DNA of 25,770 nucleotides. Source: a virus. The translations under genes were made by a program, and so were the position numbers. Within the stretch, counting starts at the first letter, position 1, and every line of letters begins with the position of its first letter. Positions 6,664-25,437 of the stretch are shown here, piece after piece. Location of the stretch: positions 1 through 25,770 of the IMG/VR virus record IMGVR_UViG_3300044941_000045; one strand, written 5' to 3'. A model generated the notes under the pieces. It ran no database searches. It saw only the letters and a list, made by a program, of their open reading frames with translations, and was not told the DNA's origin.

Positions 6664-7269
6664 ATGATCATAAGCCTTCAAGAAGCAATAAATATTCTAA
6701 ATAACGAATTGGGATGTGATCCATTTACGGAAACTGGTGCCGTGAATGGGTCTGGTACATTCTCAACCGTGGGGATATCATCCACTCTTGAAGGCGATGG
6801 AACAGGTGATCTCACAGATTTCCTGGAAATCAATGATCTGTTAGTGATCGATCAAGTCAGCTATCGAATAACTTCAGTGAGTACTGGGGAGTTAGAGATA
6901 GCTGGCGAAATCGAGTTAACTGAAGCAAAATGGCAATATGTTAAAGTAGAGGATTCTGTCCAGTTTTTAAAAGATCAAAAAAGAAGACAACAATCCTTAA
7001 ATGTATCAACAAGAATAATCGAATCTAATACTTGTGAGACCGATCCTATTCCAGAGTCTAAGAAGCTCGCAACAGCTTTGCTTGCTTGCAGATACTATGA
7101 AGGATATTCATCCGATGTAAATAATTCGAATATTTTGTCGGAAAAGATAGGAGATATTTCCACTTCGTATGACAGGAGTAAATTGGTTGAACCGATCCCA
7201 AAAGATATCATAGATATATTAGGCGACTGTTATATTGGGGGGGCTCAACCGAGCTTTTTTACAAAATGA
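6664..7269 (+). CDS. Head-tail connector (adaptor) protein
   Basis: A 201-residue protein directly after the major capsid gene. The N terminus (SLQEAINILNNELGCDPF) resembles the first helix of DnaT-like/gp6-type connectors; a beta insertion follows (residues 20-90, rich in Gly/Thr/Ser), then a helical C-terminal part (KKLATALLACRYYEGYSS). Such adaptors bind beneath the portal and receive the head-closure protein. Start: ATG 6664, one base after the capsid stop; a longer frame begins at 6589 inside the capsid gene and is rejected. It overlaps the next gene by four bases (ATGA). Function is inferred from position and general form. Confidence 0.6.
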   Translation: MIISLQEAINILNNELGCDPFTETGAVNGSGTFSTVGISSTLEGDGTGDLTDFLEINDLLVIDQVSYRITSVSTGELEIAGEIELTEAKWQYVKVEDSVQFLKDQKRRQQSLNVSTRIIESNTCETDPIPESKKLATALLACRYYEGYSSDVNNSNILSEKIGDISTSYDRSKLVEPIPKDIIDILGDCYIGGAQPSFFTK

Positions 7270-17805: not shown

Positions 17806-18068
17806 AATCAATCAACTACACATTCTTCCAAAATAACCAGTGGCAGTTTACGATCGAGGCTGATTTTTCTCTTGCTGGCTTCACAGCTTATTGTTCTGCA
17901 GAGCGTGAAGATGCAAAAATAAACTCGACAACAAGCATAGTTGGCAATATCATAACAGTAACATTTAATTCTACAAACGTGCAAAAAGGAATATGGAAGT
18001 ACGACGTAGAAGTGAATAATGGAACAGACAATTTCACACTTCAGAGAGGAGAGATACAAGTACTATGA
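17802..18068 (+). CDS. Small baseplate-periphery protein (BppU-N/Ig-like domain)
   Basis: An 88-residue all-beta protein: TFFQNNQWQFTIEADFSLAG followed by AYCSAEREDAKINSTTSI and a terminal FTLQRGEIQVL. This '..g.d..f.i...dlsg....a.i.....' layout is that of N-terminal domains of BppU-type proteins and of the first domain of the next gene, so the two may be related by duplication. ATG 17802 is preferred because it overlaps the fibre stop (ATGA); a TTG at 17778 would lie deep inside that gene. Probably a small tail-tip or fibre-connecting part. Exact role unknown. Confidence 0.6.
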   Translation: MKSINYTFFQNNQWQFTIEADFSLAGFTAYCSAEREDAKINSTTSIVGNIITVTFNSTNVQKGIWKYDVEVNNGTDNFTLQRGEIQVL

Positions 18069-19315
18069 GTTTTCCAAAGCAAAAAGATCTATCGCTTTAC
18101 AGAGGTGATACTACAAAATACATATTCAACGTCTCTGATCTTATTGGATATGTATCGGTCGGAATAAGATTTGCTGTTAAGCGGACAGATAACAACGAGA
18201 AAGTGATTGACTTCAATATACTCCCCACAGATCCAGGTAACAACTGGAACGCAGGAATCGTTCAGGCGAACGTAACCTCTGGTATGACACAAGCGATAAA
18301 AACCACACAAACTCTAGTCTTGCGATATGATCTTGAGGTAACAAGAGACGATGGTTCGAATCCGATAGTGATTAAAACAGAATGGTATGGGACGATTGCA
18401 TTTACTCCTGATGTTACAGTAGGAAATCCAATAATCACACCTCCGACAGAGGCAAATATACGAGAAGACCTAGGATCGAATAACATATCCAAGGGTGCAA
18501 CACTGGTAGGCGTTGCGTCTTCTATCTGGACGGGAATCGCTGTAAACGTTCAAGAAGCCTTAGAATGGTTGTTAGATAATACGGTAGGTCTTCCTCCTTC
18601 TTGGGTTCCAGGGAGAATCTTAAAAACAGGGGCAAGTAAACCGAATTTAGAATATTCTGGGCTTGAGATAGATAATTTAAATAACCTAACCGGTGCAAAT
18701 TCAGTGACAGCTGATTCGGCACCAACTAATCCGGAAGACTTAACACGTAAGGATTATGTGGACTCTGAGATCCTATCTGGTATAGCAACGAGAGTAGCAA
18801 AAACAGGTGATTCCATGTCGGGCGATCTGGACATGGGCGGAAACATTATCACCGGGTTAGACGATGGAGTAAGTCCGTCTGATGCGGTAAACAAAGCACA
18901 ATTGGACAATGCTGTAGCATCGGTTGGGGTCACAGACTCACCTAATTGGAGCTCTCCTTCCACAACACTTGCCCCTTCGGTTCGTGCGGTCGATGAAAGG
19001 ATAGGTGATAGATTGTCCGGTGAGAGTATCACTATCGAGTTAGATGATGATGATGAAATAAAAGTGACAGAATTATTTGACACAGCATCGAACGGAGAAT
19101 ATTTAATATTTCAAGAATCTGATCCACTAATCTATGCAAGGTTTATGTTTCGCTCTGGCTCTCCGGATTCAGCTGTTGTACTGGATGGATCACCCGAAGT
19201 AGTAACCTCAGATGTAGACACGAAACTATGCTTATATGAATCTTCGGGAGAAATATTTTTTAAAAACAGGCTAGGTAGTACACTAGAATTTAGAGTACAT
19301 AGGAGATCATTATGA
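18065..19315 (+). CDS. BppU-like tail fibre/baseplate protein
   Basis: A 416-residue tail protein. Residues 1-130 are a beta-sandwich beginning SFPKQKDLSLYRGDTTKYIF, the 'L.rGDt..y.f.v' opening common to BppU-type domains; it is laid out like the previous 88-aa protein. The middle has WTGIAVNVQEALEWLLDNT, like the 'NVQ.ALe.L' spacer of fibres, and the repeat GDSMSGDLDMGGNIITGLDD then DAVNKAQLDNAV, shared in kind with the fibre at 16825. The C-terminal 110 residues form a beta domain with a very acidic patch (ELDDDDEIKVTELFD). It probably links fibres to the tail tip. Confidence 0.7.
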   Translation: MSFPKQKDLSLYRGDTTKYIFNVSDLIGYVSVGIRFAVKRTDNNEKVIDFNILPTDPGNNWNAGIVQANVTSGMTQAIKTTQTLVLRYDLEVTRDDGSNPIVIKTEWYGTIAFTPDVTVGNPIITPPTEANIREDLGSNNISKGATLVGVASSIWTGIAVNVQEALEWLLDNTVGLPPSWVPGRILKTGASKPNLEYSGLEIDNLNNLTGANSVTADSAPTNPEDLTRKDYVDSEILSGIATRVAKTGDSMSGDLDMGGNIITGLDDGVSPSDAVNKAQLDNAVASVGVTDSPNWSSPSTTLAPSVRAVDERIGDRLSGESITIELDDDDEIKVTELFDTASNGEYLIFQESDPLIYARFMFRSGSPDSAVVLDGSPEVVTSDVDTKLCLYESSGEIFFKNRLGSTLEFRVHRRSL

Positions 19316-20088
19316 TATTAGATACAAGGATTCCGTCACTTCTTAAACAAAGATTTCCCAATGGTTTAGTTCCAAAAAATAATACAGGAAGTCCAAATAC
19401 TGTTCTTGATATAACAGCCGGGGATACCTGGGATGATACATTTTCCGATGTTTTGGTTTCATCTGGGGGCACTATTGATTTAGCGACAAACGGTCTCAAT
19501 GGTCTCGACACAGGTTCGATAGCAGCAAATCAGACTTATTTTTTATATATAATCAAAAACCCCACGACTCTCGTCACTGGGTTTTTAGCTTCGTTGTCTA
19601 TCTCTTCTCCGACACTTCCAAGTGGATTTACACTCAAGAGAGAGATAGGAGCTTGGACAACGAATGCAAGTAGCCAGTTGAGACCATATCGAACGCAAGG
19701 GTCTGGTGAGATAGTGACATACTCCCCCCTTGCCCCTATAGCATCTGTCGATGTAACTAATTTAGGAACGAGTGCCACAACTTACACTATAACAGATGCA
19801 CCAAATGGGAAAGCAGTTGAAGCAGTTATTGAAGGGAGAAATTCACGGGATGGGTCAGTAGCATCTATGAGAATATCCGCATTAGATACTACTAATATTG
19901 ACTTAAACACTAACTTAATATTTGTAAATATTGGGAACAATATATCTGGTCATAGTGGGCCAAATAGAAACGGATATAGAGTCTCTATTTATCTTAATTC
20001 TTCCAGGCAATTCAGGGCAAGATCATTAAATTCAGGGCAGGAATATTCAGCAATTTTAGTAAAATTTGACTACAACAGGAGTATATAA
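19312..20088 (+). CDS. Tail fibre tip protein
   Basis: A 258-residue beta-rich protein ending the fibre block. The segment LDTGSIAANQTYFLYIIKNP, followed by LASLSISSPTLPSGFTLKRE then IGAWTTN, is a pattern found in many phage fibre C-terminal regions ('ldtG.iaa.tfY..yli.n..tg..aalaS.sp.tPtlP.Gyt..rrig'). The last 110 residues are a separate beta domain (TTYTITDAPNGKAVEAVIEG), a good candidate for the receptor-binding tip. ATGA overlap upstream and TAATG overlap downstream. Confidence 0.7.
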   Translation: MILDTRIPSLLKQRFPNGLVPKNNTGSPNTVLDITAGDTWDDTFSDVLVSSGGTIDLATNGLNGLDTGSIAANQTYFLYIIKNPTTLVTGFLASLSISSPTLPSGFTLKREIGAWTTNASSQLRPYRTQGSGEIVTYSPLAPIASVDVTNLGTSATTYTITDAPNGKAVEAVIEGRNSRDGSVASMRISALDTTNIDLNTNLIFVNIGNNISGHSGPNRNGYRVSIYLNSSRQFRARSLNSGQEYSAILVKFDYNRSI

Positions 20089-20252
20089 TGTTAGTTTGGG
20101 TAGAGTTTAATGAAAATAAAACGGAAGTAGTTGGAATATATGCATGCGAGCAACTACCCGATCCGAATGGTGGATTTTCTCCCGTTACGGAAGAGATCGA
20201 TGAAAATGACTCGAGAGTTATTGCATTTAAGGAGCGTAAAAATGAGCAATAA
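20088..20252 (+). CDS. Small tail-fibre-associated protein (54 aa)
   Basis: ATG 20088 shares its A with the previous stop (TAATG), is preceded by AGGAG-like sequence (20077-20082), and ends at TAA 20250-20252, overlapping the next gene by 11 bases. The product (MLVWVEFNENKTEVVGIYAC at its start; ending SRVIAFKERKNEQ) resembles in form the short proteins following fibre genes, with one strand-rich half and a terminal 'D.ri.aF' element, as in fibre assembly or XkdX-like proteins. Family not proven. Confidence 0.6.
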   Translation: MLVWVEFNENKTEVVGIYACEQLPDPNGGFSPVTEEIDENDSRVIAFKERKNEQ

Positions 20253-20934
20253 AACATTTCAATTCATATGGTTTAAGATACTTGCAAGATTTTACAAGCG
20301 CAAAAAAGGCAGTGGAGCAAATCTTTCAGATTATAGAAGTTACATGATTGGATATCTTAAATGGGGCAGAAGGCTTACTAACCTAAAAGGTGTTATTATT
20401 GGAGATAGCAACGGTGAGGAGATGAAGAACTATGAGTCTATGAAACGATTCGCAGAACCAACTGTCAACATTGCAATCGGGGGGACTCGTGCAGATCAAT
20501 GGGATGAGTTTATTTATAGAGATGAAGAGATAAGGAGACTGCTTTGGGGTTTAAAAATAATATCAAATGTCGGAGGAAATAACATATTGCAGAATAAATT
20601 TGATAAGCTGAATTTAGCACTCATGAATCTTTATATTCAGTTTTCGGAATATTATCCAATAACGATCCCGCATATACACTATAAGATAATTGCAAACCTA
20701 ACAGGCAAACCGGAAGAATTGATCAGGAGTCAGGTTGAAGAAGCGAATGAGATGATTAAAAAATATTGCTATCCTGGGAATTTAATTGACATTGCTGATT
20801 TTACAGGCGATAAAGGGGAGCCGTACTGGTTCGTGCATAAAGACGCTGTGCACTATACCGATGAATTTGATTACAAGGTCAGAATACCATTGATCAACAA
20901 AATAGTTTATGGAGTGGAGAATCGTGGGGATTGA
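20242..20934 (+). CDS. SGNH/GDSL-type hydrolase
   Basis: A 230-residue protein with the four SGNH blocks in order: G54-D55-S56-N57 (IIGDSNGEE; nucleophile Ser56), block II Gly80/81 (NIAIGGTRADQW), block III GGNN at 111-114 (NVGGNNIL; Asn), and D201-A-V-H204 near the C terminus (KDAVHYTDE; catalytic Asp and His). The family hydrolyses esters, often O-acetyl groups of polysaccharide or lipids. No signal peptide is evident; the N terminus (FQFIWFKILARFYKRKK) is mixed hydrophobic and basic. ATG 20242 has AGGAG at 20230-20234. Lying between fibre and lysis genes, it may be a tail-borne deacetylase acting on host surface glycan, or a lysis helper. Substrate is unknown. Confidence 0.8.
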   Translation: MSNKTFQFIWFKILARFYKRKKGSGANLSDYRSYMIGYLKWGRRLTNLKGVIIGDSNGEEMKNYESMKRFAEPTVNIAIGGTRADQWDEFIYRDEEIRRLLWGLKIISNVGGNNILQNKFDKLNLALMNLYIQFSEYYPITIPHIHYKIIANLTGKPEELIRSQVEEANEMIKKYCYPGNLIDIADFTGDKGEPYWFVHKDAVHYTDEFDYKVRIPLINKIVYGVENRGD

Positions 20935-21247
20935 TTTTTTTGGACTTATAATCGGGCAAGGAGTAGTGCTTGCAGTCATGTACTACGCCTTCTCTTCTAA
21001 AGTTAAAGAGATAGTTAAAAAAGAGTTAGACGAACATGAGAACAAAACATTAAAAAAGTTGTCTGAGCTTGAGAAAATAGATAAGTATCAAGACCAGAGG
21101 ATAAATGAGATCGACAAAAGGGTTGCAATAGTTGAAGCAAATCAATCTTATGTTGCAATCAACATTATGGACATTAAGTCAAGCTTATCCGATAGCTTGA
21201 ATAAAATTGAAGATATATGGAAATATTTAATCAAGGGAAAGCAATGA
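20924..21247 (+). CDS. Membrane-anchored coiled-coil lysis-module protein
   Basis: A 107-residue protein with one N-terminal membrane helix (residues about 5-23, FFGLIIGQGVVLAVMYYAF) and a long charged coiled coil (24-100, with VKKELDEHENKTLKKL). GTG 20924 is preferred because GGAG/GGAGA lies 4-13 bases upstream; an ATG at 20909 would put that site inside the gene. It overlaps the hydrolase gene by 11 bases and the peptidase gene by four. Such a form is seen in spanins, XhlA-like holin partners and DUF2730-type proteins. Topology suggests the coil outside the inner membrane or in the cytoplasm; this cannot be decided by eye. Confidence 0.6.
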   Translation: MGIDFFGLIIGQGVVLAVMYYAFSSKVKEIVKKELDEHENKTLKKLSELEKIDKYQDQRINEIDKRVAIVEANQSYVAINIMDIKSSLSDSLNKIEDIWKYLIKGKQ

Positions 21248-21813
21248 TAGCAAAATTTATACCACCACCAAATGACCAACGATCCGATATTAAATGGGAG
21301 AATGAAGGTGTCAATATACTTCCGAATTCGCAATGTCTAGGTAACTTTGCAGAAGATGTTATGCGATCGGTAAGTCTTGAGACAGGCATATCGACTCTTT
21401 ATCCTGCCAACACATATGAATACTACCATATTTTTTTGGCGAATTTTCGTTCTATGTTTAAAAGATTCCCGTCGAGGATAGAGTATCTTACGGTTGATAT
21501 CCATTGCAAGATACAGAATGAGATTTACAAATCTAATGGATTAGAACATAAGCTGAAGTGGCTAGAGACAAAATCTTTGTACAATCTAGAAAAAAGGATG
21601 GTAACTAATCAAAGGATAGCCGGTGCCTCCGTAAATATTCCGGGCTCCACTCACTGGATACGATTTAATAAAATATTAGAAAACGGATTCGAAGTAAACG
21701 ACCCTTTTGGAGAATATCCGTACGATAAAAAAAAAATTGGGGGTGTATATATTTACGAAAAAGAATTGCTACAAAAAATAGGAATAAATAGAATAGCATG
21801 GATTGAGGTATAA
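21244..21813 (+). CDS. C39/papain-like cysteine peptidase, probable endolysin
   Basis: A 189-residue protein resembling Peptidase_C39_2 domains: Q30-C31 in NSQCLGNFAEDVM (nucleophile Cys31), H137 in GSTHWIRF, and D153 in GFEVNDPFGEYPY, the 'hW....' and 'vnDP.g.y' blocks typical of that fold, followed by GVYIYEKELLQKIG. Papain-fold enzymes cut peptide or amide bonds, and CHAP-type relatives are common endolysins. With holin-like and spanin-like genes next door, peptidoglycan cleavage is the likely job, though a tail-related peptidase is possible. No signal peptide; a holin would release it. ATG 21244 overlaps the previous stop; the 21217 start is rejected. A run of ten A and five G at 21727-21743 is intact in frame. 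Confidence 0.7.
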   Translation: MIAKFIPPPNDQRSDIKWENEGVNILPNSQCLGNFAEDVMRSVSLETGISTLYPANTYEYYHIFLANFRSMFKRFPSRIEYLTVDIHCKIQNEIYKSNGLEHKLKWLETKSLYNLEKRMVTNQRIAGASVNIPGSTHWIRFNKILENGFEVNDPFGEYPYDKKKIGGVYIYEKELLQKIGINRIAWIEV

Positions 21814-21814
21814 T

Positions 21815-22021
21815 ATGAAAGTTTATATATTAGAGAAAGATGAAGTTTTGTTTCAGATAAAAATTTTTATATTCGGTGCAGGATATGAATTTTCTGTATG
21901 CAAATCAGGTGACCAATACGGAATATACGAATCTGATACATCTAGATTGATTGTTTTATGCAATAGTTACAATGAGGCGATCAACTATTGCTCAGAAAAC
22001 GAAATGGAGATTGAGAAATGA
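21815..22021 (+). CDS. Small hypothetical protein in lysis block (68 aa)
   Basis: ATG 21815 lies 1 base past the peptidase stop and has GAGGT at 21805-21809; a TTG at 21803 is in frame but unlikely. The product MKVYILEKDEVLFQIKIFIF begins like a strand pair, has Cys at VCKSGD and VLCNSY and NYCSENE, and ends acidic. It carries no clear membrane helix and no family is recognised. The 'Y.I.........f....N..eA...C' ending resembles small KTSC- or DUF-type domains in general look only. Overlaps the holin-like gene by four bases. Confidence 0.55.
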   Translation: MKVYILEKDEVLFQIKIFIFGAGYEFSVCKSGDQYGIYESDTSRLIVLCNSYNEAINYCSENEMEIEK

Positions 22022-22236
22022 GTAACCCATTAAACGGAATTTATTTTACAAAAAACGACATTTGGCGGACAATAGGTTTGATACTGATATTAATTGGGCA
22101 ATTTACTAACAGGCATAAGTATGAAATATTCGGGCAAATATTTGAGACATCGGAACTTGCATTAGTCGGTATTGCTCTTGCAGTTGTTATGCCGCTGTTA
22201 ATGCGAAAATTCGGAGGTAACAATGATTCCAATTGA
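22018..22236 (+). CDS. Holin-like protein (two membrane helices)
   Basis: A 72-residue protein with two predicted membrane helices: residues 16-30 (WRTIGLILILIGQFT) and 47-63 (LALVGIALAVVMPLLMR), separated by a short polar loop with N-terminal polar start and a charged, Asn-rich end. Size, topology (both ends probably inside) and place after the probable endolysin fit a class II holin, which makes the inner-membrane lesion that releases lysin. ATG 22018 overlaps the previous stop (ATGA) with GGAG in the preceding 15 bases. Sequence-level holin families cannot be named. Confidence 0.6.
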   Translation: MSNPLNGIYFTKNDIWRTIGLILILIGQFTNRHKYEIFGQIFETSELALVGIALAVVMPLLMRKFGGNNDSN

Positions 22237-22432
22237 ATTGCTTAAGATATTAAACTGGAAAGGGTGGTTATTTCTGGTTTTGTTATTTGTGCTTATTTTG
22301 GTTGGAACAATAAAAACATGCAATCGAATAACGGAGGATAAATATGAAGAAGCAATTGAAGTTGAGTATGATACTATTGATGACTATCGGTCTCTTTGCT
22401 TGCCAGTCACAGGCAAACCGTGTGCGTTCTGA
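22223..22432 (+). CDS. Small membrane protein, i-spanin-like (Rz-like)
   Basis: A 69-residue protein with one N-terminal membrane helix (residues 14-31, GWLFLVLLFVLILVGTI) and a short acidic outer part (TEDKYEEAIEVEYDTIDDY). ATG 22223 has GGAGG at 22213-22217, five bases upstream. Its last 89 bases overlap, in another frame, the start of a lipoprotein gene, the typical layout of Rz/Rz1 inner and outer membrane spanins, which fuse the two membranes at the end of lysis. The outer part is shorter than usual for an i-spanin (about 38 residues), so the role is an inference from layout and topology. Confidence 0.55.
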   Translation: MIPIELLKILNWKGWLFLVLLFVLILVGTIKTCNRITEDKYEEAIEVEYDTIDDYRSLCLPVTGKPCAF

Positions 22433-22706
22433 ACACGCCCTGGCTTGTAAAGACGTATCCATACCTCTGGATGCAAAAATCAGAGAAGGAGATATCATCA
22501 CATATAAGTCAAAGATTTATGTTCCGTCCGAAAGATACATTGCGTTAGCTGGTCATTCCGCTGTCCTTGCAGAGTGTGGGAGAATTTCTCAATGCGTTAT
22601 ACGATGGACGGAATACGAAAGAGACTGTGAGATAGAGCAGAGAACGTTTTTATTTTATATAACAGGGATCAAAAAAAAATGCACTCTAGAGCGTCCCGAT
22701 TGCTGA
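22344..22706 (+). CDS. Cys-rich lipoprotein, o-spanin-like (Rz1-like)
   Basis: A 120-residue lipoprotein: basic start (MKKQLK), hydrophobic core (LSMILLMTIGLFA) and lipobox L17-F-A-C20, so lipidation at Cys20 is expected. The mature part has six further Cys (HALACKDV, LAECGRISQCVIRW, RDCEIE, KKKCTLERPDC), suggesting disulfides in the periplasm. ATG 22344 has GGAGG at 22333-22337. The first 89 bases lie inside the previous gene in a different frame, as for Rz1 in Rz. It is longer and more Cys-rich than common o-spanins; a superinfection-exclusion or envelope lipoprotein is the alternative. Last gene of the late operon. Confidence 0.6.
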   Translation: MKKQLKLSMILLMTIGLFACQSQANRVRSEHALACKDVSIPLDAKIREGDIITYKSKIYVPSERYIALAGHSAVLAECGRISQCVIRWTEYERDCEIEQRTFLFYITGIKKKCTLERPDC

Positions 22707-22745
22707 CTTCATAAACTCCCTAACATCTTTCACTACTTACTTTGT

Positions 22746-23278: not shown

Positions 23279-24148
23279 ATGAAAACAGATACTAAATATT
23301 TTAAAGCTTTATACGATTTTTGTGTAAATTCCGAAAAATTAACACAAAAAGACATTTGCGAATTTTGCAAAAATTACAAATCACAAAATCTTGTAAATGT
23401 ATCGCAAAAAGAGTCTTTGGCGTTTGCAAAAACTGTCATGCAAAAAAGAGCCGAAAGAAAACAAATCAAAGATGCAGAATTTGAAACTTTGAGAGATAGG
23501 TACAATTTGTCCAAGGTTTCTATTCTTTCTGAGTTATTTTTGGAAAAGTTTAAGTTCCTTGCGATCACCAAAAACCGAACAGTTTTTACTGCAAGCGATG
23601 AAGAATTCGAATTGCTTAAAAGATATAAAACTGCCAAGTCAGGCAAGTACTTAAACTCACAATCGATTTACAGTGTTAATTTTTGTCTATCGGACATTGA
23701 TAGCGTTCCCAGAAAATTCCTTGTGATTGACGGGATTATCAATAAAAAGATTTACTCAAAAACCGTGAAACAAGGAATCACTTTGATCGATGCGGAAGTT
23801 TTTGTGCAAGATGGTCGAGACATTGAAGCAAAAAGAGTTAAGATTGCGGTTCGTGGGAATTTTGCATATCACTCTGAAATTTCATGGGGCGACGCGATCG
23901 AAGGTTTGTACAAAAAAATCGATAAATCAGTCAAAAAATACTTTCGGCTCAACAATGTCACTTTAGATACTAAGATGACAAGAAGACTTTACTCTGAAAT
24001 CACAGGGGCTTGTAGTTTTGGAGTAAATGAGTTTTGTAAAAAGTATGGCTTGGAAAATACAAAAGAAATTGCAGTCCGAGACTTGCTTCCAATTTTGGAA
24101 AGTGAAAACGCTTATGGATTGCAAATTTTGAAAAAAGCTTTAATATGA
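23279..24148 (+). CDS. Early hypothetical protein (289 aa) downstream of ribozyme
   Basis: A basic 289-residue protein; no catalytic motif recognised. The N-terminal third is helical with several Cys (DFCVNSEKLTQKDICEFCKN, two CxxC-like spacings: FCVN and CEFCK). The middle is beta-rich (FLVIDGIINKKIYSKTVKQG, RVKIAVRGNFAYHSE). The C-terminal part, ISWGDAIEGLYKKIDK, then RRLYSEITGACSFGVNEFCK and AVRDLLPILESENAYG, matches a C-terminal pattern I know from phage and plasmid proteins of unknown function ('ITGaC..G...F.....l......s..e.l......yG'). ATG 23279 uses the ribozyme-embedded Shine-Dalgarno. No promoter is seen just upstream, so it probably depends on P1 and on the processed transcript. A terminator follows directly. 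Confidence 0.85.
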   Translation: MKTDTKYFKALYDFCVNSEKLTQKDICEFCKNYKSQNLVNVSQKESLAFAKTVMQKRAERKQIKDAEFETLRDRYNLSKVSILSELFLEKFKFLAITKNRTVFTASDEEFELLKRYKTAKSGKYLNSQSIYSVNFCLSDIDSVPRKFLVIDGIINKKIYSKTVKQGITLIDAEVFVQDGRDIEAKRVKIAVRGNFAYHSEISWGDAIEGLYKKIDKSVKKYFRLNNVTLDTKMTRRLYSEITGACSFGVNEFCKKYGLENTKEIAVRDLLPILESENAYGLQILKKALI

Positions 24149-24663: not shown

Positions 24664-25437
24664 ATGAATCAATCAATTTTACCAAAATCAGCTTTGGCGG
24701 TTTGTAAGCATTCTGATCGTACAGATAAATATAGATTTATCTCTACTTTGGAAGTTATCAAAGAAGCCGAAAAATACGGTTGGAACGTGGTTAGAACCGG
24801 TGAGGCAAATTTAAGAAAGAAATCTATCGAGCGAGGAATCGATGGTTTTCAGAAACATATAATCATCATGGAACATCCAAATTTTCGTGATGGCAAGAAA
24901 TCAATTCAGTTTTGCATTCGGAATTCTCATAACGGTACTTCCGGTTTGCAGTTGTTTATCGGATGTATGGTCGTGGCTTGTGCTAACCAGTTATTTTCCA
25001 AAGATATGCTGGGAAAAGGAAATGCAATTTCGATCCGGCACTCTGAAAACGGATTTCAAGCGATGAAAACATTTATTTCTCAGTTCGATTTACTGGTAAA
25101 TAAATTTGCAAATGGAATTAGACGTTTCGAGGAAAAAGTTCTTTCCCCAGAACAAGTAAAAGTTTTCGCTCAAAAAGCTATCGAGTTAAGATACGATTCA
25201 GAGCAGTTCAATCAAAGTACTGTAGAAGAATCTGTGCGATGCTTACACTTTGAACAAAAAGAAGACAATCTTTGGAATGTTTTGAATCGAGTTCAAGAGT
25301 CGTTGGTTAGGGGAAACTTGCATATTGTTTCGAAAAAAGGCAAGTTAAGAAGAACTAGAAAAATTAAATCTATGGAGGTACTTGTCGATTTAAACACAAA
25401 ACTATTAAATCTTGCTAACGATTTAGTCGAAGCATAA
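24664..25437 (+). CDS. DUF932-like phage/plasmid protein
   Basis: A 257-residue soluble protein. Segments that match DUF932 in order: KYRFISTLEVIKEAEKYGWN near the N terminus (family 'rY..vst..v...l...Gw'), SIQFCIRNSHNGTSGLQLFI and ACANQLF in the middle (where members carry R.SHdgs and a C.NG-type site), and a C-terminal LWNVLNRVQESLVRG ('lw.v.NrvqEnl..G'). Family members are widespread in phages and plasmids, with unsettled function, often near recombination or replication genes. ATG 24664 has AGGAG at 24649-24653. Single-gene unit between P3 and a terminator. This implies an early, DNA-metabolism-linked role by context only. Confidence 0.75.
   Translation: MNQSILPKSALAVCKHSDRTDKYRFISTLEVIKEAEKYGWNVVRTGEANLRKKSIERGIDGFQKHIIIMEHPNFRDGKKSIQFCIRNSHNGTSGLQLFIGCMVVACANQLFSKDMLGKGNAISIRHSENGFQAMKTFISQFDLLVNKFANGIRRFEEKVLSPEQVKVFAQKAIELRYDSEQFNQSTVEESVRCLHFEQKEDNLWNVLNRVQESLVRGNLHIVSKKGKLRRTRKIKSMEVLVDLNTKLLNLANDLVEA

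Follow-up and report, generated by a model that had tools for sequence, protein, structure and literature searches.

What is a lone gene with the catalytic residues of an SGNH hydrolase doing between the tail fibres and the lysis genes of a phage? The question is raised by a viral record (25,770 bases, 39.0% GC) that is referred to here, over its full length, as the window; its genes are named by their first position. The initial annotation had read ORF 20242-20934 as an SGNH hydrolase that either sits in the virion and strips acetyl groups from surface polysaccharide or helps lysis by acting on envelope lipids, and had considered both roles rare in phages. Answering it requires asking in turn how securely the family can be assigned, which host the virus probably infects, whether the gene belongs with the fibres or with the lysis cassette, and which substrate would fit such a position.

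A stand-alone gene with four SGNH blocks

The reading frame is as first described, opening with an ATG at 20242 and closing with a stop codon at 20932-20934, and the residues named for the four blocks (S56, G80/81, N113/114, D201-H204) are all correct in the translation (Table 1). The blocks follow one another in SGNH order, namely G54-D55-S56-N57, N76-I-A-I-G80-G81, G111-G112-N113-N114 and D201-A-V-H204, and we predict an active site with Ser56 as nucleophile, together with Asp201 and His204, and an oxyanion hole formed by Gly80/81 and Asn113/114. A four-block pattern with SGNH-like spacing was carried by a single ORF among the 1827 in the gathered loci that reach 180 aa, the gene itself, and shuffled versions of the protein produced its strict form 0 times and its loose form 35 times in 200,000; as the pattern was composed after the protein had been seen, these counts serve as a guide and not as a formal P-value.

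The gene overlaps both of its neighbours, by 11 nt with ORF 20088-20252 and by 26 nt with ORF 20909-21247, and is therefore part of a tightly packed gene run. Its product has a basic N-terminus (net +10 in 45 residues) and no membrane segment by hydropathy, with a top 19-residue Kyte-Doolittle mean of 0.65. By Kyte-Doolittle hydropathy alone no signal peptide is apparent either, on which ground a secreted lipase was rejected. The SGNH-like region is a lone 230-aa ORF rather than a domain inside a fibre or spike, and no fibre, trimerisation or docking domain was recognised in it with Pfam, PHROGs or NCBIfam; a trimeric tailspike was rejected for want of a fibre domain.

Table 1. Features from the tail fibres to the end of the lysis cassette (window positions)
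Feature	Position	Strand	Basis or remark
Tail fibre	18065..19315	+	similar to L109 over the first 305 aa and, in its N-terminal part, to Leptospira plasmid-prophages
Tail fibre protein, presumed partner of the SGNH protein	19312..20088	+	phrog_19294 tail fiber protein, E 3.6e-10
54-aa ORF overlapping SGNH start	20088..20252	+	possibly short fibre-assembly-like (weak)
AAGGAG, likely ribosome-binding site of SGNH gene	20229..20234	+	read from sequence
SGNH-like hydrolase	20242..20934	+	230 aa, stand-alone; without recognised fibre domain
S56 codon, predicted catalytic serine, block I GDSN	20407..20409	+	
G80 and G81 codons, block II	20479..20484	+	in register with hhalign, not with MAFFT
N113 and N114 codons, block III GGNN	20578..20583	+	sequence, hhalign, MAFFT
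D201-A-V-H204 codons, block V DxxH	20842..20853	+	sequence, hhalign, MAFFT
XhlA-like small protein	20909..21247	+	hydrophobic near the N-terminus, coiled-coil-like beyond; weak match to phrog_937 hemolysin, E 0.0012
Endolysin, cysteine-protease type	21217..21813	+	phrog_8519, E 4.5e-08
72-aa hydrophobic protein, holin candidate	22018..22236	+	sequence only; no family match of weight
Small membrane protein of nested spanin-like pair	22223..22432	+	L193, E 9e-06; L109, E 0.002
Lipoprotein of nested spanin-like pair	22344..22706	+	LFAC lipobox (by eye)

Assignment to the SGNH family

Searches of Pfam, PHROGs and NCBIfam returned no SGNH family match, and a sequence search of the PDB no SGNH chain, in each case at E up to 1. 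When MAFFT was used to align the protein with four SGNH proteins from bacteria, picked for also having a GxNN block, GDS54-56, G111, N113, N114, D201 and H204 fell into invariant columns and block II was left unaligned. With hhalign, residues 73-208 aligned to a first broad SGNH profile (rows from the 19 of 30 loci that passed a motif filter, the others being dropped), which put blocks II, III and V into register; none of 900 decoys and none of 300 shuffles reached the score. A second broad profile, for which 44 of 87 loci passed the filter, 29 building the profile and 15 being held out, gave the same register; here one of 500 decoys and none of 200 shuffles scored as high or higher, and the held-out SGNH proteins scored 84-206 (15 of 15) against 25 for the window protein. 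The hhalign alignments span 124-129 columns and begin after block I. A narrow profile from five SGNH proteins of the GxNN type gave no match, 21 of 700 decoys equalling or exceeding the window protein (decoys being, for all three profiles, samples of ORFs of 180-350 aa). An hmmsearch placed the protein third among 2469 sequences with an E of 1.3, and AlphaFold2 models made without relatives had an uninformatively low mean pLDDT of 34 both times, the second covering residues 46-230.

The product of 20242-20934 is thus likely, though not proven, to be a remote SGNH-like protein, with borderline profile scores and SGNH-type hydrolase as the best assignment. The identity first proposed for it therefore survives as regards the blocks and the profile register, but in a more guarded form.

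The virus and its probable host

An indication of the host comes from the tail genes. The tail protein encoded at 14964-16823 matches 6 of 72,556 plasmid records, all six from Leptospira interrogans, whereas a tblastn search of 50,697 phage records, LE4 included, gave no match to it at E 0.001. One of the six plasmids is lcp3 (NZ_CP006727), where 14964 is matched at 26.1%; upon mitomycin C induction, lcp3 is described as giving tailed particles (PMC6078989). Collinearity with the window extends over tail genes 14964, 16825 and 18065 in three of the six (L086, L087 and L088). Of the relatives found, the nearest is the record IMGVR_UViG_3300020057_001243 (L109): among the 13 window genes between 7266 and 19315, 12 match it at 30-55% identity, the comparison starting at 7266, where the fetched L109 locus begins. 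On these grounds the host is probably a leptospire or close kin.

Towards the two ends of the window, a C5-cytosine-type DNA methyltransferase gene (42-971; phrog_116, E 1.1e-56) directly precedes ORF 953-1378 and the terminase large subunit, and ORFs 23279-24148 and 24664-25437 lie beyond the lysis genes, neither with a strong NCBIfam match and the former with no PHROGs match at E 0.01.

An exchangeable block at the receptor-binding end

The gene indeed stands between tail fibres and lysis genes, as had been claimed, with fibre-like 19312 upstream and, downstream, a lysis cassette related to those of L109 and L191-L194. Similarity to L109 extends through the first 305 residues of fibre 18065, whose C-terminal end had no match, and resumes at endolysin 21217 and the spanin-like pair 22223/22344. 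Genes 19312, 20088, 20242 and 20909 had no tblastn match in L109 at E 0.01, the 54-aa ORF 20088 being too short for its missing match to weigh. The SGNH gene thus lies within the receptor-binding region, after 19312 and inside a block unmatched in L109. In the same slot L109 has a longer fibre (collar-type by eye), a protein whose weak DUF4376 match stays under the cut-off, and a membrane-type protein of 231 aa; L087, L088 and lcp3 have DUF4376-type proteins (one above the Pfam cut-off, one below it and one by annotation) along with others. The 231-aa protein of L109 (13879-14574) has an N-terminal membrane stretch, takes the position ahead of the endolysin that XhlA-like 20909 has in the window, and gave no Pfam match of weight.

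Fibre 19312 is matched by 35 phage records, including a Rhizobium phage RHph_N17 protein that covers 91% of it at 27.9% identity. Near its relatives in 6 of these 35 matches there was no SGNH-annotated gene, the neighbours being mostly 'hypothetical', and one such neighbour scanned with Pfam gave no match. The 54-aa ORF has no Pfam match and shares a 13-residue similarity (E 0.51) with a small protein encoded next to a fibre of a Rhizobium phage.

Relatives of the SGNH protein itself were sought widely. A tblastn search at E up to 0.1 gave no match in the 50,697 phage and 72,556 plasmid records, and phmmer over the gathered loci recovered the window's own copy alone. Pattern-based searches, sensitive to close relatives only, returned 11 matches in viral contigs and 20 in genome contigs, with no relative in either; a VIIGDSNG-type DNA pattern picked out ten stretches of viral contigs, of which five with the motif in frame were inspected and none looked SGNH-like by eye. 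A loose SGNH pattern was absent from all 1226 ORFs of 130 aa or more in 57 loci, a set made up of finds by tail-gene similarity (some overlapping pieces, some weakly related), LE4, part of LE1 and lcp3. In 28 records reached via leptophage-type loci, neither the protein nor PF13472 found a match (0/28 each), the PF13472 count being weak because that profile misses the window gene too. Given a block without an L109 match, other contents of the slot in relatives and the absence of the pattern from those 1226 ORFs, the SGNH gene is, by comparison of gene content, an accessory insert at the receptor-binding end. A seroconversion gene of the lysogen was rejected as a candidate, given that the gene lies within the tail-to-lysis run.

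The lysis cassette downstream

The genes that follow can be traced in related viruses. Endolysin 21217 is 29.6% identical to its L109 counterpart (E 7e-18) and 24.4% to that of L193 (E 2e-07), and lipoprotein 22344 is 37.0% identical to that of L109 (E 5.7e-25) and 36.4% to that of L193 (E 2e-18). L193 is one of four further loci, L191-L194, which we infer to be leptospiral: all four contain lipoprotein relatives, L193, which was compared gene by gene, also has the endolysin and the small membrane protein, and by eye the four have XhlA-like and holin-like genes too, the layout of 20909 resembling the gene there. The stretches fetched from L109 and from L191-L194 (for the latter four, the + strand) contained no SGNH-pattern gene, and an essential lysis role for the SGNH gene seems unlikely. 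It could still have travelled with the lysis genes, because XhlA-like 20909 is also without an L109 counterpart.

As in Rz/Rz1, the genes of the spanin-like pair overlap out of frame, at 22223-22432/22344-22706 in the window and at 15662-15886/15798-16211 in L109, and the lipoprotein has an ACQSQAN motif and conserved cysteines. Terminator-like stems occur at 22744 and 22894, after the last lysis gene, a weak signal given 4 such sites against 1.8 expected. For the lytic leptophages LE3 and LE4, it is reported that lysis genes could not be identified (PMC6078989).

A possible role at the phage tip

Tentatively, we favour a lone, diverged SGNH serine esterase that is exchanged with the receptor-binding genes and acts on O-acetyl groups of the host O-antigen at the phage tip. 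The enzyme would be made together with the fibres and would strip O-acetyl groups from the lipopolysaccharide O-antigen; that it might dock to a fibre through its basic N-terminal 45 residues is speculation. Work on leptophages lends such a role some context: lipopolysaccharide (LPS) is described as a receptor of LE1, LE3 and LE4, and a nonsense mutation in, or deletion of, LEPBIa2019, a probable O-antigen-locus acetyltransferase, made L. biflexa resistant to LE4 (PMC6078989). According to the same source, loss of LEPBIa2019 did not significantly reduce LE4 adsorption, complementation of the resistant mutant failed, and a high LE4 dose still caused some lysis (PMC6078989). LE4 is a different phage, so its result points to no more than a possible importance of O-acetylation for leptophages. 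Of the two roles that the initial annotation had left side by side, the virion esterase would fit both the exchangeable block and leptophage biology, and the lysis helper comes out weaker.

That helper would attack membrane lipids from within the cell, as an esterase or lipase, alongside the holin, endolysin and spanin-like genes. Such a role would suit the 26-nt overlap of the 3' end with the XhlA-like gene, that gene's own lack of an L109 match and the basic N-terminus. Against it stand the endolysin and spanin-like cassettes of L109 and L191-L194, whose fetched stretches have no SGNH-pattern gene, the absence of a membrane segment by hydropathy and the spanin-like pair already in place, and we hold it to be quite unlikely. 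An esterase released freely at lysis, which would act outside the virion and clear O-acetyl groups from debris, vesicles and neighbours so that progeny are not trapped, strikes us as unlikely, though somewhat less so than the helper. The enzyme stands alone without a recognised fibre or docking domain, its gene lies where fibres give way to lysis genes in a single run, followed by the (weak) terminator-like stems, and most LE3/LE4 particles are reported to be associated with membrane-derived vesicles (PMC6078989); the phage SGNH esterases described in PMC13123978, PMC11058221 and PMC9569702 are, however, virion tail proteins.

A different sort of accessory enzyme, working inside the cell to alter, for instance, a host metabolite or envelope precursor, would agree with the accessory distribution and with the lack of a secretion signal by hydropathy, but the gene lies inside the tail and lysis run and not among separate accessory genes, which makes this reading improbable. 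Little credit, too, goes to the view that the protein is no SGNH enzyme at all, its blocks being coincidental in an orphan protein or its fold being kept without activity. This would account for the missing family match, the failed narrow profile and a score near that of the best decoys; it has to contend with catalytic residues that are complete and in order, with a strict pattern that none of 200,000 shuffles produced and only this ORF among the 1827 carries, and with a collinear hhalign alignment in register. We consider it the least probable of the readings discussed here.

Leptospira serovars are distinguished largely by their O-antigen. Should the favoured tip esterase edit O-acetylation, it would offer a direct handle on leptophage specificity and could be used to map the O-acetyl groups of Leptospira LPS. 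The lytic leptophages LE3 and LE4 are described as having a narrow, LPS-dependent host range (PMC6078989). A bolder proposal is at present a doubtful conjecture: a lone SGNH esterase, and not a fibre domain, would serve Leptospira phages as a swappable module for receptor tuning, unmasking or editing O-acetylated O-antigen as the counterpart of the LE4-deciding acetyltransferase.

Comparison with known phage SGNH esterases

The idea that such enzymes are uncommon in phages does not hold, SGNH esterases being no rarity among phage receptor-binding proteins. Among Klebsiella prophages, SGNH domains are reported to be among the most prevalent receptor-binding enzymes, occurring also in adjacent genes (PMC13123978), and Acinetobacter phage fibres contain them too (PMC11058221). 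Pectobacterium phage Possum gp66 is an SGNH tail fibre that deacetylates O-polysaccharide (PMC9569702), as is gp63.1 of phage G7C, as cited in PMC9569702 and PMC13123978. In the open-access literature searched, no paper was found that joins SGNH, phage, lysis, esterase and Leptospira, and none that joins leptophage and deacetylase.

At the level of the family, the window protein shares the order of GDS, G, GxN and DxxH with Pfam Lipase_GDSL_2 (PF13472) and other SGNH hydrolases, but does not match PF13472 at E up to 1 and holds Asn in its GGNN block, where block III of SGNH hydrolases usually reads GxND. That a gene of SGNH type is overlooked by Pfam, PHROGs, NCBIfam and a PDB sequence search alike matters for phage annotation. 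The L. interrogans plasmid-prophages NZ_CP092164, NZ_CP043879 and NZ_CP092160 have 14964, 16825 and 18065 collinear at 25-32% identity; within this group, lcp3 included, the slot of the SGNH gene is taken by DUF4376-type proteins and others.

With G7C gp63.1 and Possum gp66 the window protein has in common the SGNH blocks, a place in the receptor-binding region and a plausible O-antigen substrate. The published phage SGNH esterases compared here are mostly domains of long fibres, as in Possum gp66, where the SGNH domain is central in a long fibre, whereas the window has a lone 230-aa predicted esterase without a recognised fibre part. Close to it as well are the SGNH-domain receptor-binding proteins of Klebsiella prophages, with SGNH in or beside receptor-binding genes as in the window, whose phage is itself related to prophages; two of the Klebsiella proteins are active on pNP-acetate, whereas the window protein, a predicted esterase, has no similarity detected by the library profiles. 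SGNH esterases in phage receptor-binding regions are already established, and the novelty here lies in the probable host group, in the stand-alone form of the protein and in how extremely it has diverged.
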